The position numbers and the translations under genes were made by a program. The notes below the pieces were generated by a model that did not search any database, was not told where the DNA came from, and saw nothing but the letters and a program-made list of their open reading frames with translations. Of a stretch of 64,000 nucleotides of DNA, positions 11,303-25,582 are shown piece by piece (within the stretch, counting starts at the first letter, position 1; every line of letters starts with the position of its first letter). The DNA comes from Citrus sinensis (Eukaryota; Streptophyta; Magnoliopsida; Sapindales; Rutaceae): NCBI RefSeq assembly GCF_022201045.2, contig NC_068559.1:17727501-17791500 (forward strand). Reading direction: 5' to 3'.

Positions 11303-11793
11303 TAATCGATGTTTACAAAGAATAAACTTGTAGTTATCATCAGGAAAGAACCTTGAAAATACCTGGTATTTTGCGTGCAAAACTGTCGTGTTATATGATT
11401 CAAGATAGTGACCAATTATCTACTCATATTCGGTAACAAAGCTATGTCATTGGCAAATTCTGGGGAAATTTACGAAAATAATCATAAAATTTTTGCTATT
11501 TTCATAATTAACCCTCTCAACTTTTTTCTATCAACATTAGCCAAACACACGTTTTTCTCCCCAAATTACCCTTCTTTACAAACCAAAAATAACTTTCTTT
11601 CTCCCATTTCGTCAAACCAAAGCCAGCTTTCCACTCTTGAATCATCAACCAACGGCGACGGTACAAGGCAACGATAAAAGTGAAATCCGATCATAATCTA
11701 TCCGGATCCAACACTAATCGGCATCACATAGTGGTATGAGTTATTTTCTGAACTTGCTCGAGAGTTTCAGTAAACTGCGAGTCGGGGTGAATT

Positions 11794-11935
11794 TGGCGAC
11801 AGGCAGCCTGTCGCACGAAGCTTGGTGCGACAGGCTGCCTGTCGCACCAAAACTTAGTGCGACAGGCTGCCTGTCGCACCAAAACTTAGTGCGACAGGCA
11901 CCTGTCGCACCAAGCCTTGGTGCGACAAGCACTTG
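11794..11935. repeat. Array of near-perfect palindromes, 32-bp period
   Basis: A 23-bp palindrome (GTGCGACAGGC, a central A/T, then its reverse complement) occurs at 11794-11816 (imperfect left arm), 11825-11847, 11857-11879 and 11889-11910 (1 bp shorter). A half copy follows at about 11919. The spacers are 8-9 bp and also similar (CAAAACTTA, CGAAGCTTG, CAAGCCTTG). Each unit could form a hairpin or cruciform. Confidence 0.9.
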
Positions 11936-12129
11936 TAATTTGGTGACCATTGTATTCGGCTTTTGTAATAATGAAGCTCGAAATATGACGAAAAAAAGGG
12001 CGGGATGGGGGGAAAAATATAAAAAGAATGCATTCACATTTTGATGATTGAACCTGAAGAAAAGAACGTGATTGAATTATAAAGTGGTTGGACAGAGATA
12101 TGCCAGCAAACGAAATCGTCTATTCCAAA

Positions 12130-12360
12130 CTTCAATAATTTCTTTCCTCCATGCTTCTCAGACCAACAGGAGCCACCTTTGTTATCGTACTCAATCTGGA
12201 TGGAGTCGATGCCAGCTCCATGAGCTATCACCAGCTGCCTCACTGTCGTGTGAACTCCATCATCCCAACGAGTACCGTTCTGACCTCCCCATGGTCCGAC
12301 CGCTATTGGTTTGAGCTGGGGATGATACATTCTCAACATTGCCGCCGACGCCGCTGACAA
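12130..12360 (-). pseudogene. Jacalin-related lectin exon captured by MULE
   Basis: A 108-codon minus-strand frame starts at 12360 and runs to 12034; only its first part is lectin-like. Near residues 19-30 it reads IAVGPWGGQNGTRWDDG, then LVIAHGAGIDSIQIEYD and WSEKHGG by residue 72 (about 12144). These are the N-terminal blocks of a jacalin (mannose-binding) domain. After KHGG the sequence stops resembling the family, probably because it enters a former intron. The C-terminal half of the domain is missing. The fragment lies wholly inside the Pack-MULE, next to the inverted repeat, and may be transcribed, but it cannot make a complete lectin. Confidence 0.8.
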
Positions 12361-12829
12361 TGAGAGGCTCTTCGATTTGGGAGAGATGGGAGAAAGAGAG
12401 ATTGTTGGGGGAGAGATGAGAGAGAGGGGTATTTTGGTCTGAAATGCTTTTTTATGGCTAATGTTGATAGAAGTTTGTTTAGAGGGTTAAGATAGAAAAA
12501 GCCAAAATTTTTATGGCTATTGGTGTAAATTTCCCCAAATTCTGGGCAAGTTTGCAGCTCCAGCTGTTTGAAAGTATAGACAAATACATAAATTTGGCTG
12601 CAGATGCTCTCAAAGCAAGTTGGGTAATTGAGAAACAAGAAGCAAGTTGGGTAATTGAAAAACAAGAGCTTAAGAAAAGCACAAACATTATCGGGTCAAT
12701 ACCAAAAGTTTAGCTCAAAAACAGAGTAAGGGATGAATTTGCGGCAGCACCAACTTCAAAGGTTTAGGAGCTGCCAAGGAGTTGGCATGCACTTAAAATG
12801 CCATGACTTAGGAAATGAATTACAAGACC

Positions 12830-14279
12830 TGACACAACTTAAAAGTAAATTTTAACTCCCAAGTATAAGAGTGTCTTGTTGTATTATAACTCGGTGAGTC
12901 CGAGGTCGATCCACAGAGAAAAGATTTAATTAGTTTATTTTATTTTATCTAAAAATTGAAATTAAAACTTGAATATAAACAACTTAATTTAAATGAAACT
13001 ATGGAATTGAACTAGTTAGGGTTATGGATCCACTCTTAGAAATAAATAAAACTTAATAAATTCTTTTTGCCAATTTGTTTTAGATTTATTACTCAAAAGA
13101 TTAATTATACAAATTATTATTATTTTCCCTTTAATTTTATGATGGATTAAGTATTTATTGTGCCAAAATTTAATTTGTCTACAATAAGTCAAAATACCAT
13201 TTCACCATGCCTTATATTAAGATCTTAAGAATTTATTGTGCCAAATTCATTTGTTTGTCTACAATAAATCAAATTTTCAAAATATAAAACATGTATAAAA
13301 TTAAATAGAAAATAATTTAATTTATAAAATTAAACATAGAATTTGATTAAATCATATTTATTTCTAAAGAGTTTCACCTTCCCCTAACTAATATTATTTA
13401 GTTAAGCATAATTAAAATAAAAAGAAGTAGTAAAATTGAATTACTTATAATTAAAAGAAATAAAAACAACTAAAATTGGAAATAAAACTAATTTTATTAA
13501 TGAAAATAATTATACAAAATATTAAAAACACACCTGGAAATCAAGATTACAAGGAGATGGAGAGAATTTGAGAAGAAGAGAGTTGTAGAGAGATGATTAA
13601 AACATAAAAATGAGGCTCTATTTATAGAAAAATAAATTCATAATCCAGTGCTTTGCGGTCCATCATAGGCTTCATGCATGTGCTCCTCACAACCCTTAGA
13701 TCAAGATCCAATGGCTGGTCAAACTTCAAAAGTCAACATCACACATGGCATCATTTGACTCGTCCGATTTACCCAAAGAACGGTTGAGATTTGGCGGGTT
13801 AATGGGTGGATCGGGTCGACCCGAATACAAAGATTCGGATCCTCCAACTTGCTTCACCAACCATTGCCACGTGGCACAATCATGGCCATTGAATCATGAA
13901 CGGTTGAGATTTAGTCAAGATTGCCAATTATCCCATGCACTCATATCTATTGTAAGCTCATTTCATCATCCAATCAGTGCTCGGTCAACAGGAAAAGTCA
14001 ACTTTTTTTACACAAGCCCAATTTTAAGCCGATCTTGATTGATCTTAAGGTTTTCGGACCTCCGGAATCCAAATTTGACCTCCGTTTATCTGTTTGGAGC
14101 CTCGAAGTACGTGAAATTAATAATTTTCCTAATAAACACATAAAAATACACAAAATTAAATATATTTAAAACATAATTAATAATTCATAATATATTACAT
14201 AAACACAAATATAAATTATAACATAAGCATAAAATAACATATTATCGCTTGATAATTAAACAATTTTTAATACTAATCA
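12830..14279 (-). repeat. 3' LTR of Athila element
   Basis: 1450 bp. In element orientation it starts TGATTAGTATT and ends GTTGTGTCA, so it has TG...CA ends. The other copy lies exactly 11,298 bp to the right. A TATA box (CTATAAATAG on the minus strand, about 13618-13627) marks the U3/R area. Short open frames inside it are duplicated exactly in the other LTR and are not genes. Confidence 0.95.
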
Positions 14280-14290
14280 CACCCCCCAAC
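14280..14290 (-). other. Terminal polypurine tract of Athila element
   Basis: GTTGGGGGGTG on the minus strand, directly before the 3' LTR start (TGATTAG). This is the plus-strand DNA primer site for reverse transcription. Confidence 0.85.
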
Positions 14291-14599
14291 CAGCTTATTG
14301 CTAGCCCTCTAGCAATTTAAAGCGTTATATTAAGATTTATAAAATTCACATGCAAGTTAATAGTTGTTCATCTATCCTCTAAATTACCAAATAAATGAAC
14401 TCTCCCAAATTCCTTTACCACATTGATGTTCACTCATTATCCAGAATATCATCAAACCTTCTTTTGTGCTCAAGTAATTAACACAATACTTATGGGGCTT
14501 CATTAAAAGAAAAACAACATTTTCGTTCTAAAATTCATTAGAAATTATATCTTTAGGCAATAGATTATTCACACATTTTTTTTTTTATATTACATTTCT

Positions 14600-14821
14600 A
14601 ACCCGTGTAGCGAGCTTTAGGTCAATGACTCCCAGACCAGTTGGCCTTAGGGCACTAGGTGTTGAAGCACCCCTACGGACTTAATTACTCGGGTTTCTAA
14701 TAAACAAACAATATATCTATTACCCATGTAGCGAGCTTTATGCCAGTGACTCCCAGACCAGTTGACCTTAGGGCACTAGGTGTTGAAACACCCCTACGGA
14801 CTTAATTACTCGGGTTTCTAG
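14600..14821. repeat. Tandem repeat in 3' region of Athila element
   Basis: Two copies with a 121-bp offset (starting about 14601 and 14722). Each runs from ACCC-TGTAGCGAGCTTT through CCAGACCAGTTG and GGGCACTAGGTGTTGAA to CTCGGGTTTCTA. They differ by a handful of substitutions. They lie between the internal and terminal polypurine tracts. Confidence 0.9.
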
Positions 14822-15673
14822 ATATAACAAAATTAAAAACATTTTTTCTTCTTCTTTTTTTTTGATTTTTTTTTTTTGGTTTTTTTGTTTTTTTGTTTTT
14901 GGAAATATACACTTTCTACTACCTTAGATACTATTCCTAATAAATCAAAAGAACTAAATGCTGTAAAACTTTAACTTACAACCCACTAGTATGTGTCATA
15001 GTGTGTGTGTGAAGAATGATTCAATAATACCTGTTAAATGAGTAAACAATTAAATAACTTAATAACCAAGTGGAGAGTTCACAAATTTGAGTAATTCAAA
15101 GAAAAGGGAACAAAAACAACTTACTATGAATCTCAAAATCAAAATATAATACAACAAGACTATTAGGATGCGTCTCAAAAGTCGTGACTCTTTACACGGC
15201 CATCCTAGACAAAAAACAAAATTTTTTTTTTTTTGGTTTTTTTTTAACAAAGAAAAGAAAAGAGAAAAGAGAAAAACAACACACATATTTAAAATATACG
15301 TCAATTATCCCCACCCCACAACCTAATCTAAACATTATCTTAACATTTTATAATTTTACAGATATGCAAAAAAATAAAAATAAAAGAAAATAATAAAAGA
15401 AGAAGAAGAAGAGATCTCACCTGAACTGGATGCAGAAGCTTAAAAGCAAATAACAAAGATGAAGAAAGAGTCAATTTTTTTTTTTAACAACACCCTTAAG
15501 ATTAAGAAGATGCGTTTCTAGAGAGACTACATTCTCTATATCCTGCCATCTTCGACTCAAATTTGTCCTAAGTTAGTCTTTACAGAAAAAAAAAAAATTT
15601 TTTTTTGTTTTTTTTTTTTTTTTTTTTTTGTAAACACATAACCAGGACTAAGACATTCCACAATTATCAACTA

Positions 15674-15689
15674 TTCCCTCCCCCCAACC
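15674..15689 (-). other. Internal polypurine tract after LOG
   Basis: AGGTTGGGGGGAGGGAATAG on the minus strand, preceded by ACATTGAGGACAATG. The same pair occurs after the LOG pseudogene of the second element (about 58045-58061). It is a second, internal polypurine tract 1.4 kb before the terminal one. It could be a central plus-strand primer or a relic of an earlier 3' end. Confidence 0.7.
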
Positions 15690-15772
15690 TGAAAAAGACA
15701 TTGTCCTCAATGTTTTAAAAGGAAAGAGAAAGAGTGTAGAAGACATCACATGAACACTACAACAGAAAATAT

Positions 15773-16447
15773 TTACAAACGGAGAGTTAAATCTAAATCG
15801 CACTTCTTATTACTGCTACTGTTACCGTTACCGTCATTAGTCGACCAATTCAGTGCAACAGTCTGTGGATCTGGCTCTGGTGTATAAGCTTGCAAAAGAT
15901 CAAGTAACTCATTAGCAGTAGAAGCAGAGATAAAGAGTTTTTTTACAGAATGTGGAACAAAATGATTCTTTATTGCATGGTTAATAAAAGTTAGCAAGCC
16001 GTCATAAAAATTATTAACATTTAACAAACCGATGGGTTTTTGATGAATGTTCAAGTGGGCCCAAGATGCAAATGTAATTAGTGCCTCAAAAGTTGCAAGA
16101 TCTCCTGGCAAGAAAATAAAAGCATCAGCATGATTCATCATTTCAGATATTCTCTCTTGCATACTTGATACCACTAATTCTTCTCCAATTGGTGGGCCAG
16201 ACATGCACACTAGCGGTTTCATGGGTTTTGGGATAATGCCGAGTACTTGGCTTCCTCTGGTAAAAACAGCTTCTGAGACAAGTCTTGATAACCCTCGTTC
16301 ACCTCCTCCATATACAAGATGCAGTTTCCTCTCTGCTATGACACGACCAAGATCTACAGCTGCCTGAACGAACTCTTTGTACTTTCCATAGTGAAACCCA
16401 GAAAGCACACAAATATTTTTGAATTGTTTACTCGAAGATGATGCCAT
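15773..16447 (-). CDS. LOG-like protein carried by retrotransposon
   Basis: 224 residues, slightly longer than a typical LOG protein. LOG enzymes release active cytokinin bases from riboside monophosphates. The Rossmann-type core is present: ICVLSG (12-17), LVYGGG (44-49), GLSRLVSEAV, VLGIIPK (68-74), the conserved Arg at 99 in MQERISEM, and KPIGLLNVNNFYDGLL (137-152). The signature PGGxGTxxE reads PGDLATFEA at 114-122. Two glycines and the final catalytic Glu (now Ala122) are replaced, so ordinary activity is doubtful. It is intronless and lies about 370 bp after the 184-aa gene and before the internal polypurine tract. The ATG at 16447 is the only sensible start. A degenerate homologue sits at the same place in the element at 57.9-64 kb. 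Its role is unknown; a binding, decoy or altered enzyme are possible. No intact progenitor gene is in the window. Confidence 0.9.
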   Translation of the reverse strand: MASSSSKQFKNICVLSGFHYGKYKEFVQAAVDLGRVIAERKLHLVYGGGERGLSRLVSEAVFTRGSQVLGIIPKPMKPLVCMSGPPIGEELVVSSMQERISEMMNHADAFIFLPGDLATFEALITFASWAHLNIHQKPIGLLNVNNFYDGLLTFINHAIKNHFVPHSVKKLFISASTANELLDLLQAYTPEPDPQTVALNWSTNDGNGNSSSNKKCDLDLTLRL

Positions 16448-16680
16448 TGGACTAATTTTTCAAAAACAAGTTGTGAGTGTTTGAAAAATGAGCTCATATT
16501 TAAAGATCTTGGTAACATAAATAATGAGAAACAGCTGTAAATGGGTTGGCAATATTTGTCAAATGACGAGTAAAGCTCGTGGCTCAATAATTCAAAAACA
16601 AACAGTAAAAAGAAAGTAATGATTAGAAAAAGCAAACAGTAAAAGAAAACCAAATATTTATTAAATACAAAATCACATCG

Positions 16681-16929
16681 CTAAATGCAATAATGCAAAT
16701 GATAAAATAACAGTAAAGTAAAATAACAGTGAAGTGAAAGGATATTTACTAGTAGTTGTGATTGTGGCTCACATCTTCCTCTGGTTTTACGTCCAGTAAC
16801 GGCTTGAACGCCCTCTATGGGTCGAGGATCGGCTTCCCATCCAGTTTTCTTATAAACTGGCAAACAGGGTCTTTTTGAGTCAGATTCCCAAGACTTAACT
16901 GTGCACTTTGTTTTTGGAATAGTATCCAC
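16681..16929 (-). other. Overlapping ORF with hydrophobic tail, doubtful
   Basis: An 82-codon minus-strand frame overlapping the 3' end of the 184-aa gene in another frame. The last 60 residues (from LPVYKKTGWEA to a hydrophobic stretch ending YCI) match a 60-codon frame at 58996-59178 in the second element. About 48 positions are identical by eye. The last 25 residues are mostly Leu, Ile, Phe, Tyr and could span a membrane. Conservation may simply reflect the overlapping gene for the first half; the hydrophobic half lies beyond that gene's stop. Whether it is translated is unknown. Confidence 0.35.
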
Positions 16930-17369
16930 AAATTGTAAATCTCACGTTGCACAATTCCGCTTCGATGCGTCTCAAGAGATCGTAAGATATCATCCAACGA
17001 TTCTTTACTCATGCCATCTTTAACGAATTTAATTTTATCTTCACGAGTATCAGAAACCATTCCTAAAGATTTACAATCTGGTCGTTTGCAACCAAGTCTC
17101 ACACAGTTATGACATTTTGAGCCAAGTCGTTTAGCTCTCCTTTTCTTAGCAAACGTACTTTTACCAAAACCAGGCATGTAAGAAACAAATTGACCAGAAA
17201 ACTCACCTGCTAATCGGACCTTTGCTTCAATTAACCAACGAATGTCAGAAGGAATGCCATTGATCATTAACAAACGCAGTCGTTCACAACGAGCTTTGTA
17301 AATTTTCCTGAGGGCATTCTGAGGGAGAGAGGGAAAATGCTTATGGAGTTTATGTTGTATTTCTTCCAT
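16815..17369 (-). CDS. Basic Cys-finger protein of retrotransposon
   Basis: 184 residues. The N-terminal half is probably helical (FPSLPQNALRKIYKARCERL, then IPSDIRWLIEAK). A basic patch AKKRRAKR follows near 74-81, a likely nuclear or nucleic-acid-binding signal. Immediately after it comes a four-cysteine finger C86-x2-C89-x4-C94-x4-C99. The C-terminal part (100-184) is not recognised. A basic patch followed by a Cys finger is the layout of the cysteine-rich nucleic-acid-binding proteins of carlaviruses and related plant RNA viruses, several of which suppress RNA silencing. The similarity is at motif level and may be convergent. The gene follows pol and precedes LOG, the position of env-like genes in Athila elements. 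The broken homologue at 59130-59687 keeps all four cysteines. The start matches the homologue's Met. Confidence 0.75.
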   Translation of the reverse strand: MEEIQHKLHKHFPSLPQNALRKIYKARCERLRLLMINGIPSDIRWLIEAKVRLAGEFSGQFVSYMPGFGKSTFAKKRRAKRLGSKCHNCVRLGCKRPDCKSLGMVSDTREDKIKFVKDGMSKESLDDILRSLETHRSGIVQREIYNLWILFQKQSAQLSLGNLTQKDPVCQFIRKLDGKPILDP

Positions 17370-17552
17370 GTATGATTTTGGGGTTTCAGTTATTGTGGGA
17401 AACTGAAGATACCGACTTAAGAAGTCACGGAGTACCGTTATCCGCCATTTATACGGGAAAATAAATCAAAACACACCAAAATCAAATCTGCAAAATCAAA
17501 TCAAGCGTGAAAGCAAGCAAAAAGAAGCACACAATATAAAAGGAAAATGAAC

Positions 17553-17786
17553 TTACATTCGTCCTCTCATTGAGTTAACCTCAAGCTCCATTTGAAATTC
17601 ATATATGCCACTCTCTACTGTTCTGAGTTGTCCCTCTAGATCCTCAACATAGGACACGAATTCTGGTGGTTGCAGATCCCAAAGTGGATGTGATTTACAG
17701 CTTTGTATCAGGCCTCTTAAGTGAAATTTTATACGCCGAAATCTTTTAAGATGTGCGAACAGGTATTTTCTCATTGAGGTGCTCAT
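17553..17786 (-). CDS. Small conserved ORF downstream of pol
   Basis: 77 residues starting at MSTSMRKYLF; an earlier in-frame Met at 17831 exists, but the homologue in the second element (59831-60064) begins at the equivalent of the second Met. The sequence is basic at the N-terminus (LKRFRRIKFHLRG) and has an acidic, probably coiled-coil tail (VSYVEDLEGQLRTVESGIYEFQMELEVN). No family is recognised. The last codons run into a strong splice donor, AAT|GTAAGT, and a TTTTGCAG acceptor lies about 70 bp further on, before the 184-aa gene. The pair could make a spliced mRNA, although the simple join does not keep a long frame open. Function unknown. Confidence 0.6.
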   Translation of the reverse strand: MSTSMRKYLFAHLKRFRRIKFHLRGLIQSCKSHPLWDLQPPEFVSYVEDLEGQLRTVESGIYEFQMELEVNSMRGRM

Positions 17787-17962
17787 GATGTAAAATGAAA
17801 ATTGATGAGAGAATGTACAACTGTCAAACAAACACGCTTACACAAGAAAAACAATGTTAAAAAAAAAAAAAACTATGTACAGTGCATCAATCTAAGGAAA
17901 AAAAAAAGTCAAACAATGAAACGGTAAAATAATAGTAAAACAAAAAAAAAATCATTAAAAAC

Positions 17963-20900
17963 TTAATCAAGAATTGGTGGGTCATCCAAATTAATTTCGG
18001 TGTCCTCGTCACGTGGGTGATGTTCCAGATATGGTTTTAATCTTTGACCATTAACTTTAAATGTGACACCATTATTTGGATTCTCAATTTCTATGGCCCC
18101 ATATGAATATACATTTTTTACAACAAATGGGCCACTCCATTTTGACTTTAACTTTCCTGGAAATAAATGAAGACGAGAATTATAAAGCAACACTTTTTGA
18201 CCAATCTCAAATGTTTTTCGAAAAATTCTTTTATCATGAAATGCTTTTGTTCTTGCCTTAATAATTCTTGAATTTTCATATGCATCATTCCTTAATTCCT
18301 CAAGTTCATTCAATTGCAATTTTCGCACATTACCAGCATCAACCAAATTTGAATTAAAAGCTTTAATAGCCCAAAGTGATTTATGTTCAAGTTCAACAGG
18401 TAAATGACAAGGTTTACCATAAATTAACCGATAGGGTGACATTCCTAATGATGTTTTAAATGCAGTGCGGTAAGCCCAAAGTGCATCATTAAGTCTAAGA
18501 GACCAATCTTTTCGGTTTGGGTTAACCGTTTTTTCCAAAATTCGTTTTATCTCCCTATTTGCTAATTCAACTTGACCATTTGTTTGAGGATGATAAGGGG
18601 TAGCAATTTTATGTGTAATTCCATATTTCTTCATTAAAGACTCAAATGACTTATTACAAAAATGCTTACCTCCATCACTGATAATGGCTCGAGGGATTCC
18701 AAATCGACTTAAAATGTTTTCTCTTAAAAATTTAATCACAGTTTTACTGTCATTATTTCGACAAGAAATTGCTTCAATCCATTTTGAGACATAATCAACT
18801 GCAACTAATATATACACAAATCCAAAAGATGATGGAAATGGACCCATGAAATCAATTCCCCAACAGTCAAATATTTCAATTTCAAGTATGGGATTTAAGG
18901 GCATCATGTTTCTTTTTGTAATTGATCCCAATTTTTGACATTTTTCACAACTTTTGCAAAATTCATATGTGTCTTTAAACATGGTAGGCCAATAAAATCC
19001 ACACTGCAAAATTTTAGCAGTAGTTTTTCTTGAAGAAAAGTGACCACCACATGCTTCAGAATGACAAAAATTAATGACACTACTTACCTCATTATCAGGA
19101 ATACATCGCCGAAAAATTTGATCTGGGCAATATTTGAACAAATAAGGATCATCCCAATAAAATTTCTTTACTTCAACAAAAAATTTCTTCTTCTCTTGAG
19201 CATTCCATTGCAAAGGCATTTTACCTGTAACAAGAAAATTAACAATATTAGCATACCATGGCATTGAAGTAACAGAAAATAAAAATTCATCAGGGAAAGA
19301 ATCATTTATGGGTGTTATATCATTGCAGAATTCGGATGTGAGTCTTGATAGATGATCAGCAACAACATTTTCAGCACCCTTTTTATCTTTGATGGTAAGG
19401 TCAAATTCTTGTAGTAACAAAATCCAACGAATTAGTCTCGGTTTGGCATCCTGTTTACTCATCAAATATCTCACAGCAGCATGGTCAGTAAACACAACAG
19501 ATTTAGAGCCAAGCAAATATGAACGGAATTTGTTTAATGCAAATACCACAGCAAGTAATTCTTTTTCAGTTGTAGAATAATTCATTTGAGCACTATCCAA
19601 AGTCTTGCTCGCATAATAAATCACAAAAGGCTTACCATCCCTTCTTTGTCCTAAAACAGCACCAACAGCAAAATCACTTGCATCACACATTAATTCAAAT
19701 GGCAAAGACCAATCAGGAGATTGCATAATAGGTGCAGATGTTAAAAGACAAATTATTTTTTCAAAAGATTTTTGGCAATCATCATTCCATTCAAACGGTG
19801 CATCTTTTAATAAGAGGTTACAAAGTGGTTTAGATATGGCACTAAAGTTTTTTATAAACCTCCTATAAAATCCTGCATGTCCTAAAAAGGATCGCACATC
19901 TCTAACTGTTTTTGGTTGTGGCAATTTAGATATGACTTCGATTTTTGCTTTGTCAACTTCAATTCCTTTAATAGAAACAACATGACCCAAAACAATTCCA
20001 GAAGTAACCATGTAGTGACATTTTTCCCAATTCAACACGAGTTCTTTTTCAACACATCTTTTTAAAACTTTCTCCAAATTATCAAGGCAATCATCAAAAG
20101 AATTCCCAAACACAGTCAAATCATCCATAAAGACCTCTAAACAATGTTCAACCATATCACAAAAAATGCTTAACATACATCTTTGAAATGTTGCAGGAGC
20201 ATTACAAAGCCCGAATGGCATTCTTTTAAATGCAAATGTTCCAAAAGGACATGTGAATGTGGTCTTTTCTTGGTCCTCAAGTGCTATAGGAATTTGATAA
20301 TAACCTGAATATCCATCTAAAAAACAATAGTAGGGATGTCCTGCTACTCTTTCTAAGATTTGGTCAAGGAATGGTAATGGAAAATGATCTTTTCTAGTGG
20401 CTTCATTTAATTTTCTATAATCAATGCACATGCGCCAACTAGATGTAATTCGTGTTGGAATTAATTCACCTTTTTCATTTTTAACAACAGTGATTCCAGA
20501 TTTTTTAGGCACTACTTGTGTAGGACTTACCCACTTACTATCAGAAATAGGGTAGATAATTCCCACATCAAGTAATTTAAGGACTTCTGTTTTGACTACC
20601 TCTTTCATGTGTGGGTTTAATCTTCTTTGAGGTTGTTGACATATTTTAGCATTTTCTTCCAAATTAATTCTATGTGTGCAGATTAAGGGATTAATGCCTT
20701 TAATGTCATTTAAAGTCCATCCTATTGCATTTTTATGCTTTTTAAGAACAATTAGTAACTTACCTTCTTGGTCGCTTGTTAAAGTAGAAGAAATCACAAC
20801 AGGATAAGTTTGTTCTTCTCCAAGAAAAGCATATTTCAATCCTTCAGGCAAAGGTTTCAATTCCATTTTAGGTGCTTCTTGTTGTTCTGTCTTTTCAATA

Positions 20901-23350
20901 CTTCCAAGCTCCTCAAATTTTGGCTCGTCATCATAATTTTGCGAAGTCTGCATAGAATCAAGCAACGAATTTATATTAGAAATATCAAGTTTAAGTTGCT
21001 TATTTGACTCAATTGAATTAACTAAACAAACATTAGAAAGTTCAGAAAAATCCCCTTTTTGAATATTTTCCTCGATACAAGATTCAAACAATTCCTTTTG
21101 TTCATCAGTATCATCTTCATTCTCATTTTCTTCATTAGGTTGCCTGCACATGTTGAAAACATTCAATTCCAAAGTCATATTCCCAAAGGATAAATTCATT
21201 AAACCATTCCTACAATTAATCAAAGTATTAGCAGTTGCTAAAAATGGTCGACCTAAAATTACAGGAATTGGTTTGTAATTATTCACAACAGGTTCAGTTT
21301 CCAAGACAATAAAATCCACAGGATAAATAAATTTATCAACTTGTACTAAAACATCTTCCACTATTCCTTTTGGTACTTTAACTGATCTATCGGCAAGCAA
21401 AAGTGTAGTTGAAGTTGATTTTAACTCACCAAGATTAAGTTGAAGATAAACTGAATATGGAAGCAAATTAACACTAGCACCAAGATCTAGTAAAGCATGC
21501 TCAATTCTGTGGTTACCAATAATACAAGAAATGGTAGGACAACCAGGATCTTTATATTTCAACTTATTATTAGTAGACAGAATTGTACTTACCTGTTCGG
21601 CCATGAAAGCACTCTTTCTTACCTTCAATTTCCTCTTAACAGTGCACAAGTCCTTTAAAAATTTGGCATATGAAGGAACCTGCTTGATTGCATCTAATAG
21701 AGGAATGTTAACTTTCACTTGCTTAAAGATTTCATAAATTTCAGAAGAGTGGTTTGATTTCTTTGGTTTATTCAATGCATGCGGAAATGGTGGTTCAGGT
21801 GGAACACTAGTTATTTCTTCACTAGGTGTAAGTTCATTTAGTCCTTCCTTACCCTTTGAATTTTCATCATTTTCATAAGGTTCAGGCATAGGTCTATCAA
21901 CAACCTTACCACTACGAAGAGTTATAACTGACTTGACTTGGTCTGTGGGTGGATTTTGTTGAATTTTAGGATTTGGTTGTGGTTGGGCTGGAAATTTTCC
22001 TTTTTCTTGAATGGTGAGTGCAGAAGCAATTTTAGCAAGAGTATCTTTCAAATCAGAAAAAGTTTGTGCATTTTGATTGTTAATAACATCTTGCTTTCTG
22101 ATGAATGAATGCATTGTGTCCTCCAGATTTTTCCAAGGTGGTGGAACATATGGTGCATAAGGCTGAGGATTTTGAAAATTTTGTGGAGGTGGTGCTTGTG
22201 AAGATTGTGCATTATTATTATTCCTCCAACTGAAATTCGGATGATTTTTCCAACCAGGATTATAAGTCTGTGAATATGGGTTTGGTTTATTGAAAGTGTT
22301 AATAACATTAGCTTGATCATTTAGACATTCTTTAAGTGCAGGCAAAGTGGGACACTCTTGAGTGAAATGATCATTCGAATTACATATGTTACATGCAATT
22401 TCTTGAACAGATTTTACTTGATCACTCTTTTTATGCTCCAAAGCTTCAACTTTCCTAACTAGGGATGCAAATTTTGCTTGTAAATCATGATCTTCCCTAA
22501 GGTTATGGATTCCTCCACTAGATGGAGATGATTGTTGCTTATTTGTCAATTCAAAAGTTCCAACAGTATCCCAATGTTGTGCATTTTCAGCTAATTGGTC
22601 AAGGTAATCTAGTGCATCTTCAGGATTTTTATCCCTAAATTCACCATTACACATCATTTCAACAACCTGTCTACTTTGGGGTATTAAGCCTTCGTAGAAA
22701 TAAGTGACCAATCGCCAAGTTTCAAAACCATGATGTGGGCATATGTTAAGCAACTCTTTAAACCTATCCCAACATTGGTATAATGTTTCTCCATTTTTTT
22801 GAGTGAAAGAAGTGATTTGCCTTTTAAAAGAATTTGTTCTATGAGGTGGAAAGAATTTTTTCAAAAACTGTTCTTGCATGTTATTCCAAGTTCTTACTGA
22901 TCCAGATCTAAGGTTTTGTAGCCAAGTTTTAGCTTTATCTTTTAATGAAAAAGGAAAAAGCTTTAATCTAATTATGTTCATGCTACAATTTTGGTCCGTG
23001 TATGTATTACAAACTTCCTCAAAATCTCTTAGATGCAAGTACGGATTCTCAGATTCTAAACCATGAAATGTTGGTAAAAGTTGGATAATACCTGGTTTAA
23101 AATTGAATCGAGATGCTTCTGGAGGAAATACTATACACGACGGTGCTCCGGTTCTGGTTGGATTCATGTAGTCTCTCAGAGTCCTTGGTTGATTCTGATC
23201 ATGCCCATGTTGAGATTGGTTGTCTCCCTGATCAATTTGAGGATTAGGTTCGCCCAAAACGTTTTCGCCTTGATTCTCATCCATGATTGGTGGTGGAGAT
23301 TGAGATCTACGAATTAACCTGCCACTTGAAGATCGAGACCAATGTCTCAT
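17963..23350 (-). CDS. Athila gag-pol polyprotein, intact
   Basis: 1795 residues in one uninterrupted frame. Gag: capsid-like blocks at about 130-220 and a CCHC zinc knuckle C-x2-C-x4-H-x4-C at 320-333. Protease: [12 protein letters not shown] at about 620. Reverse transcriptase: [20 protein letters not shown], and FMDD near 1073 as the catalytic motif. RNase [15 protein letters not shown] near 1222. Integrase: an HHCC zinc-binding region ending CKSCEKCQ near 1465. The DDE residues lie in WGIDFMGP (about 1498), IISDGGKHF (about 1558) and [11 protein letters not shown] (about 1593). A GPF/Y-type module (WSGPFVVKN) lies near 1740. No chromodomain is seen. All catalytic motifs are present, so the protein is probably functional. 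Gag and pol are fused without frameshift. The Met at 23350 is the first in frame, and the leader before it has no competing long frame. Confidence 0.95.
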
Positions 23351-24103
23351 GCAAGGGTTATGTTATAAAGATAATATTTACACAAATTGATAACAAAATA
23401 AAATAAAATAAATAAATAAGCAAATAATATAAGTATACAAAAGAAAATTAAATAACAAAAATGGTGGTTGAACCCACCAATTAAAAAAATAAAAAATGCA
23501 AAATTAAATAAATACTGAAAATTAAATAACTGAAAATAAAAGTTAAGGGTTAGTAGTTAGTTTGGTGGTTAAACCCACCAATAAAGCAAAAAAATAAAAA
23601 AATAAAAAAATAAATACGAAATAAAATAAATGCAGAAAATTAAATAACTGAAATTAAATAAAAGTTAGGAGTTAGCAGTTAGTAAGTTAAGAGTTAGTAA
23701 TTAGAGTTAGTAGTTAAAGTTAGTTTGGTCCAAAATAAGTCCAAATATGTCCAAAGTATGTCCAAATATGTCCAAAGTATGTCCAAATATGTCCAAGTCT
23801 TGATTATGTTGAGGAATTTCGTCTAGGGATTCTATTGCAAATTATTTTTAATTTTATGGTCAAACTATAATTTTTAGAAGTTTAGAATTAGCAATTTGGG
23901 ATGAAAGTGAAACAATTGAAAGATATCGGGGTCCGAACGTAATTACCAGAAGATTGGGCTAGAAACGGAAACTGTTGGGGTGAAACGAGAATTATGAAAG
24001 ATATGGGGACAAAAGAGAATTTAAGAAAAGGAAAAGGGGGCAAACGAAATTTTACATATAAGAGAAAAATAAAAACGGAAAAACAAACCAAATAAAAAAC
24101 TTT
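23351..24103 (-). other. Retrotransposon leader with short repeats
   Basis: Untranslated leader between primer site and gag. It contains repeated TATGTCCAAA units (about 23727-23800, roughly 21-bp period) and repeats of GTTAGTAGTTA (about 23540-23720). A phrase around GAACCCACCAAT-type sequence occurs twice (about 23470 and 23572). No long coding frame. Confidence 0.7.
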
Positions 24104-24121
24104 TCCCCGGCAACGGCGCCA
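24104..24121 (-). other. Primer-binding site, tRNA-Asp
   Basis: TGGCGCCGTTGCCGGGGA on the minus strand, close to the inner end of the 5' LTR. This complements the 3' end of a plant tRNA-Asp including CCA, the primer expected for Athila elements. Confidence 0.9.
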
Positions 24122-24127
24122 AAAACT

Positions 24128-25577
24128 TGACACAACTTAAAAGTAAATTTTAACTCCCAAGTATAAGAGTGTCTTGTTGTATTATAACTCGGTGAGTCCG
24201 AGGTCGATCCACAGAGAAAAGATTTAATTAGTTTATTTTATTTTATCTAAAAATTGAAATTAAAACTTGAATATAAACAACTTAATTTAAATGAAACTAT
24301 GGAATTGAACTAGTTAGGGTTATGGATCCACTCTTAGAAATAAATAAAACTTAATAAATTCTTTTTGCCAATTTGTTTTAGATTTATTACTCAAAAGATT
24401 AATTATACAAATTATTATTATTTTCCCTTTAATTTTATGATGGATTAAGTATTTATTGTGCCAAAATTTAATTTGTCTACAATAAGTCAAAATACCATTT
24501 CACCATGCCTTATATTAAGATCTTAAGAATTTATTGTGCCAAATTCATTTGTTTGTCTACAATAAATCAAATTTTCAAAATATAAAACATGTATAAAATT
24601 AAATAGAAAATAATTTAATTTATAAAATTAAACATAGAATTTGATTAAATCATATTTATTTCTAAAGAGTTTCACCTTCCCCTAACTAATATTATTTAGT
24701 TAAGCATAATTAAAATAAAAAGAAGTAGTAAAATTGAATTACTTATAATTAAAAGAAATAAAAACAACTAAAATTGGAAATAAAACTAATTTTATTAATG
24801 AAAATAATTATACAAAATATTAAAAACACACCTGGAAATCAAGATTACAAGGAGATGGAGAGAATTTGAGAAGAAGAGAGTTGTAGAGAGATGATTAAAA
24901 CATAAAAATGAGGCTCTATTTATAGAAAAATAAATTCATAATCCAGTGCTTTGCGGTCCATCATAGGCTTCATGCATGTGCTCCTCACAACCCTTAGATC
25001 AAGATCCAATGGCTGGTCAAACTTCAAAAGTCAACATCACACATGGCATCATTTGACTCGTCCGATTTACCCAAAGAACGGTTGAGATTTGGCGGGTTAA
25101 TGGGTGGATCGGGTCGACCCGAATACAAAGATTCGGATCCTCCAACTTGCTTCACCAACCATTGCCACGTGGCACAATCATGGCCATTGAATCATGAACG
25201 GTTGAGATTTAGTCAAGATTGCCAATTATCCCATGCACTCATATCTATTGTAAGCTCATTTCATCATCCAATCAGTGCTCGGTCAACAGGAAAAGTCAAC
25301 TTTTTTTACACAAGCCCAATTTTAAGCCGATCTTGATTGATCTTAAGGTTTTCGGACCTCCGGAATCCAAATTTGACCTCCGTTTATCTGTTTGGAGCCT
25401 CGAAGTACGTGAAATTAATAATTTTCCTAATAAACACATAAAAATACACAAAATTAAATATATTTAAAACATAATTAATAATTCATAATATATTACATAA
25501 ACACAAATATAAATTATAACATAAGCATAAAATAACATATTATCGCTTGATAATTAAACAATTTTTAATACTAATCA
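24128..25577 (-). repeat. 5' LTR of Athila element, promoter copy
   Basis: Second copy of the 1450-bp LTR, next to the primer-binding site, so this is the copy that would drive transcription. The TATA box is at about 24916-24925 on the minus strand. I saw no mismatch with the other LTR, but this was by reading and not by computed alignment. Confidence 0.95.
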
Positions 25578-25582
25578 AGACC

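Follow-up and report, generated by a model that had tools for sequence, protein, structure and literature searches.

A LOG-like gene without its catalytic motif and a zinc-finger gene resembling viral families in an Athila-type retrotransposon of Citrus sinensis

Can a young plant retrotransposon bring a working cytokinin-pathway gene, along with other host-type genes, into its host genome? This question is raised by an element on the minus strand of a 64,000-nucleotide stretch of Citrus sinensis DNA (hereafter the window; contig NC_068559.1, positions 17,727,501 to 17,791,500, or C4:17727501-17791500 in the 299.7-Mb genome of 11 contigs that we searched). An earlier note, made from the sequence letters alone, had described this element as a complete Athila retrotransposon carrying a LOG gene and two other cargo genes. 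We found that the element is real and recent and that its three cargo frames, ORFX, ORF2, and a LOG-like frame, are under purifying selection. As judged from sequence, the LOG-like frame probably encodes a preserved LOG without catalytic function, rather than a functional enzyme of the cytokinin pathway; ORF2, for its part, is unlikely to be cargo taken from the host.

A recent element with a module kept across its family

Completeness of the element was evident from the duplication AGACC on both sides, a tRNA-Asp primer site, and an open gag-pol frame of 1795 amino acids. The base-by-base alignment of the two long terminal repeats (LTRs) proposed in the earlier note showed no divergence, with 1450 of 1450 bases matching; two mismatches reported by BLAST fall beyond the TG..CA ends. 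Four other copies gave a similar picture. Their LTR pairs differ by 0, 0, and 1 per 1450 bases and, in the fourth, by 0 over 360 comparable bases, while their target duplications are all distinct 5-bp sequences (ACTAG, ACCGG, TTGGC, and AATGT). Diverged LTRs are thus ruled out by the identical repeats in the window and the near-identical pairs elsewhere. If plants accumulate 1.3e-8 substitutions per site per year, the lack of any difference across 1450 bases most likely dates the insertion to less than about 80,000 years ago; substitution in trees may be slower.

Downstream of pol lie the three open frames that the earlier note had listed, of 77 (ORFX), 184 (ORF2), and 224 (LOG-like) amino acids. 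A genome search with this 2014-base region (15,773-17,786), in which only the best candidates were scored, recovered the cargo full-length at 97-100% in 39 of 40 matches, window included; the remaining one spans 1594 bases. This rules out a single-copy capture or an artefact, and the refuting condition set in the earlier note, that other full-length copies lack the cargo frames, did not hold. A degenerate pattern for the element-type LOG motif matched 944 genome sites (487 + 457) as compared to 1 in the reversed control. On contig C1, which holds 15 of the 150 ORF2 matches listed, 13 of these 15 are followed on their own strand by such a motif site, at a distance of 663-688 bases; the chance expectation, with a subset of the C1 motif sites used, is about 0.06.

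The same arrangement was found in a second lineage, whose DNA identity to the window lineage is about 78% for LOG, 74% for ORF2, and 73% for ORFX. There, the three frames follow one another in identical order at 30 of 30 loci, which argues that they are more than a chance assembly. ORFX, ORF2, and LOG reached 90% or more of their full length in 30, 29, and 30 of these 30 loci, which, as top protein matches, are biased towards intact copies; among 20 copies from the window lineage, the corresponding counts were 20, 18, and 16. Matches of the window LTR in the second lineage are uninformative, the compared stretches ending about where the LTR would begin.

We then estimated dN/dS, the ratio of nonsynonymous to synonymous substitution rates, by the Nei-Gojobori method on frames of at least 90% of the window length (ORFX 50/50, ORF2 47/50, and LOG 46/50). 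Between the two lineages, the ratio was 0.21 for LOG (510 pairs), 0.25 for ORF2 (551), and 0.32 for ORFX (630). Across three lineages, the third consisting of two loci, LOG gave 0.16-0.23 at dS 0.58-0.83. Bootstrap 95% intervals for the window against locus L010 were 0.13-0.32 for LOG, 0.14-0.37 for ORF2, and 0.13-0.64 for ORFX (490 of 500 replicates usable). Because the second lineage was picked up through protein similarity and the analysis was restricted to near-full-length frames, within-group ratios and intactness counts are biased, and it is the between-lineage values that carry the argument. Plant substitution rates of 6.5e-9 to 1.3e-8 turn the between-lineage dS into a rough estimate, by which the module may have been maintained for tens of millions of years.

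ORFX itself is a small protein of unassigned kind: no Pfam family scored above its cutoff, and the matches listed comprised 13 proteins, namely that of the window itself and 12 that carry neither name nor family.

ORF2 and the viral zinc-finger profiles

ORF2 belongs to a protein family with 465 reported relatives, 120 of them listed, whose named entries come from several rosids (Citrus, Populus, Xanthoceras, Acer, and Rhamnella). An alignment of 66 sequences shows almost no variation at cysteines 86, 89, 94, and 99 (alignment A1: the window, 64 of the listed database relatives, and one locus frame; a second alignment, A2, holds the window and 37 relatives). When these 66 sequences were scanned singly at E <=0.01, Viral_NABP matched 57 and Carla_C4 matched 56, with best E values of 1.1e-8 and 3.7e-8. 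Among eight selected relatives, six scored above the cutoff of Carla_C4 and five above that of Viral_NABP, the matched stretches being as long as about 90 residues, and neither viral family matched any of seven reversed relatives. Because the family spans several rosids and so many of its members match virus-type profiles, ORF2 is probably not host cargo. Of the cargo frames named earlier, the LOG homologue stands as kept in the family; that all three are host-type cargo is not supported, since the 184-amino acid frame belongs to a family with matches to virus-type zinc-finger profiles.

The viral counterparts are the cysteine-rich nucleic-acid-binding proteins of the carla-type group (PF01623 and PF05515), to which ORF2 is linked by the family-level profile matches and the four conserved cysteines. 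It differs in its longer C-terminal part (ORF2 has 184 amino acids) and in being borne by a retrotransposon. According to PMC12172455, the viral members suppress silencing and act as pathogenicity factors, and one is a transcription factor that induces hyperplasia. In the open-licence PMC literature, we found no carlavirus-type protein in a plant retrotransposon.

Several observations weigh against such a kinship. ORF2 of the window lies just under both cutoffs (20.8 of 20.9 bits for PF01623 and 20.3 of 23 bits for PF05515), and five of the seven reversed controls gave sub-cutoff matches to a cysteine-rich family that is unrelated, at best with E 6.1e-4. A match near 1e-3, the level of the window copy, is therefore of little value by itself, and it is the higher-scoring members that carry the case. 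The predicted structure is of low confidence (predicted local distance difference test score, pLDDT, 63.6), and the fold search returned no match at E <=0.001; one of its eight weak matches is a carlavirus nucleic-acid-binding protein, which at E 5.9 has no evidential value. A scan of viral contigs for ORF2 relatives gave 104 pattern matches, none of which was confirmed.

The same observations would suit a zinc finger born in the element, whose viral likeness, a basic stretch and four cysteines, arose by convergence and not by descent. This alternative is unlikely but a serious contender: the sub-cutoff match of the window, the spurious matches in reversed sequences, and the missing structural match are what it would predict, but it fits poorly with the strength and number of the matches to two viral profiles, with the relatives that pass their cutoffs, and with the absence of both viral families from every reversed control.

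Two segments next to ORF2 were also kept in the two lineages. The first, 78 bases from the ORF2 stop codon (included) onward, shows by eye only 5 lineage differences, though dS of ORF2 is about 0.9; it is unexplained and a candidate for a regulatory RNA or an overlapping frame. The second, a conserved spacer directly 5' of the ORF2 start, contains short inverted repeats. Its length changes between the lineages, which argues against coding, and it is possibly an RNA element for ORF2 expression. Separately, three Citrus gene models (P0083, P0102, and P0117) join Carla_C4 and LOG domains in one protein, apparently where annotation runs across ORF2 and LOG of such elements.

The LOG-like protein and its catalytic motif

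That the third frame is a clear LOG homologue, as stated earlier, was confirmed by its Pfam match (Table 1). It aligns at residues 5-202 with Arabidopsis At2g37210 (2a33; E 6.6e-49), a protein named LOG3 in PMC4979012, and over nearly its whole length with 1ydh (E 4.7e-45). The likeness to plant LOG phosphoribohydrolases thus extends nearly full-length over the LOG fold. In contrast to them, the element frame is intronless and its motifs are replaced: it reads YGGGERGLSR for YGGGSxGLMG, MQERI for MHxRK, and PGDLATFEA for PGGYGTLEE (PGGxGTxxE), so that the catalytic glutamate and two glycines of the last motif are gone.

The replacements in the last motif are shared by the family. In the 102 relatives whose motif was detected, glutamate never occupies the catalytic place, which is taken mostly by alanine, in some by threonine, valine, glycine, or serine, and in one by aspartate; the search expression left the motif undetected in 18 of the 120 relatives listed. 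In an alignment of 86 of these 120 (those of 200-240 amino acids), the derived residues D, A, and A are kept at 98, 89, and 88%. The claim of a working cytokinin-pathway gene is therefore not supported. In a LOG of Corynebacterium, Arg99 and Glu122 were proposed as the two catalytic residues, Glu122 being the last glutamate of the motif, and alanine at the tested active-site residues, S19A excepted, almost completely abolished activity (PMC4979012). A review likewise names arginine and glutamate as critical (PMC8234997). The same exchange, glutamate to alanine at the catalytic place, separates the solved LOG sequences 5zbj and 5zbk, the latter presumably an engineered variant. Since the motif is lost across relatives, yet dN/dS between lineages is only 0.16-0.23, the element LOG is probably preserved as a non-catalytic protein.

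The structure model of the LOG-like protein is of low confidence (pLDDT 38.4). Against this conclusion counts that active-site arginine and threonine are mostly retained in the 86 relatives (the catalytic arginine of MHxRK is present in the window copy and in 89% of them), which makes residual or changed activity possible. The protein might then still be an enzyme of altered chemistry or substrate that increases the level of active cytokinin, or of another base, in the cells of the host. Purifying selection would be expected of such an enzyme, the first glutamate of the motif region is kept as well as the arginine and threonine, and plant LOGs with equal critical residues can differ in product (PMC11593424); but with a catalytic glutamate in none of the 102 relatives, and alanine at the corresponding place so damaging to the bacterial enzyme, we hold this reading to be improbable.

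The host genes form a separate set. The host-type motif YGGGSxGLMG occurs at nine genome loci, where LOG coding is split over exons. The canonical LOG motif pattern has a single genome match, since host LOG genes tend to have an intron inside the motif; how many LOG genes the host has cannot be read from it. The idea that the element recently captured a LOG of present-day Citrus is ruled out by the introns of the host genes and by the long separate branch of the element LOGs, in a tree that is rough because its host rows were projected from exons, some running into introns.

Element class, proposed roles, and significance

Domains of gag, reverse transcriptase, RNase H, and integrase were identified in the gag-pol frame. 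The ten Pfam families that the scan detected at E <=0.1 included neither a second RNase H, the mark of Tat elements, nor a chromodomain, the mark of chromoviruses, and the extra frames lie in sense 3' of pol, a usual though not obligatory Athila feature. For these reasons, domain content and frame layout fit Athila (Ty3/gypsy, OTA) and not Tat or chromoviruses, by the membership criteria of PMC6317226. The Pfam scan did not find PF03078 (ATHILA ORF-1), which is reported in 16% of Athila elements (PMC6317226). What sets the element apart from the clade, with which it shares the single gag-pol frame, is the pair of LOG-like and virus-type zinc-finger genes. Its primer site pairs with the 3' end of tRNA-Asp at 14 genome sites (reversed control, 0), and both primer-matching tRNA genes retrieved are tRNA-Asp(GTC).

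Table 1. Features of the retrotransposon, in window coordinates
Feature	Position	Strand	Basis or remark
Retrotransposon	12830-25577	-	
Target site duplication AGACC, left	12825-12829	no strand	flank comparison
Target site duplication AGACC, right	25578-25582	no strand	flank comparison
5' LTR, 1450 bp	24128-25577	-	identity with 3' LTR
Primer binding site, tRNA-Asp	24104-24121	-	sequence and tRNA genes of the same genome
gag-pol, single 1795-amino acid frame	17963-23350	-	open frame and Pfam domains
ORFX, 77 amino acids, no assigned kind	17553-17786	-	frame; dN/dS 0.32 between lineages
Spacer segment 5' of ORF2, kept in two lineages	17370-17446	-	lineage comparison
ORF2, 184 amino acids, C4 zinc-finger protein; family-level match to viral nucleic-acid-binding profiles	16815-17369	-	dN/dS 0.25
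Segment 3' of ORF2 stop, kept in two lineages	16737-16814	-	lineage comparison
LOG-like frame, 224 amino acids, intronless, catalytic motif replaced	15773-16447	-	PF03641 E 1.3e-29
3' LTR, 1450 bp	12830-14279	-	identity with 5' LTR

Three further observations concern the window. An Rfam match to snoR71 (22725-22833, plus strand; 45.3 bits against a gathering threshold of 40, E 1.2e-6) lies antisense within the gag part and is either a segment resembling a small nucleolar RNA or a case of the Rfam model picking up gag sequence. A tandem pair of 109-nt repeats, 91% alike, is located between LOG and the 3' LTR (14591-14820). Just outside the element is an inverted repeat (11454-12544) with 122-nt arms, 74% complementary and 847 nt apart.

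The abstract of a 2011 report is said to name two Athila-like elements resembling LOGL4. In line with that report, which it cites, PMC9289625 describes Gypsy consensus sequences that contain a YgdH/LOG domain, from Citrus sinensis and C. clementina and, under a looser filter, also from poplar. LOG-type domains in Gypsy elements of Citrus are thus not new. Sharing host species, LOG-type domain, and Gypsy class with our element, these sequences very likely represent the same group; the passages of PMC9289625 devoted to them give an account without catalytic-motif loss, selection, or a second frame. The open-licence PMC literature yielded no report of motif loss, selection, or a virus-type second frame in such elements. 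Accessory domains of host or viral origin that became fixed in a retroelement lineage, with a proposed anti-silencing or RNA-level role, are also described for orchid elements with an AlkB-type domain (PMC9289625) and insect elements with a viral helicase (PMC6338049), which differ from ours in domain and host. The helicase domains of the insect elements, which come from RNA viruses, weakly suppress silencing (PMC6338049) and therefore provide a precedent for the role proposed for ORF2.

Our preferred explanation, which we put forward tentatively, is an Athila-type element in which three genes, placed after pol and before the 3' LTR, form an accessory module. ORF2, as a putative relative of carla-type RNA virus proteins, would bind nucleic acid and weaken the silencing that the host directs at the element. 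Having lost its catalytic glutamate, the LOG-like protein would act via binding instead of cleavage: it may pair with host LOG subunits, the pockets of LOG being formed at the dimer interface, or may hold a nucleotide ligand. Host signalling would then be dampened or buffered where the element replicates. The data establish the anatomy of the element, its recency, the retention of the module across the family, the motif loss, and purifying selection; expression, nucleic-acid binding, silencing suppression, and heterodimers or ligand holding by the module proteins are what we infer here.

A more specific version, which we consider decidedly doubtful, casts the module as a counter-defence cassette, in which a zinc-finger silencing suppressor sharing descent with plant RNA viruses would be combined with a dead LOG that intercepts nucleotide or cytokinin signalling as a nucleotide sponge or dominant-negative subunit; if true, it would imply anti-silencing gene exchange between plant RNA viruses and LTR retrotransposons. 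That the cargo frames are functionless passengers, captured sequence copied with the element, is very unlikely: LTR elements are known in general to capture host sequence and some copies carry stops, but the identical frame order in two lineages and the between-lineage ratios of LOG and ORF2 at high dS, with bootstrap intervals below 0.4, already disfavour it.

For Citrus genomics, many proteins named cytokinin riboside 5'-monophosphate phosphoribohydrolase look like element frames and can mislead LOG family counts. If the tentative explanation of a binding-type LOG and a silencing-blunting ORF2 is true, a selection-kept, non-catalytic hormone enzyme in a high-copy element would mean that a retrotransposon can influence the physiology of its host through binding instead of catalysis, and a gene of the viral silencing-suppressor type in plant retroelements would link the counter-defence of elements with that of viruses.

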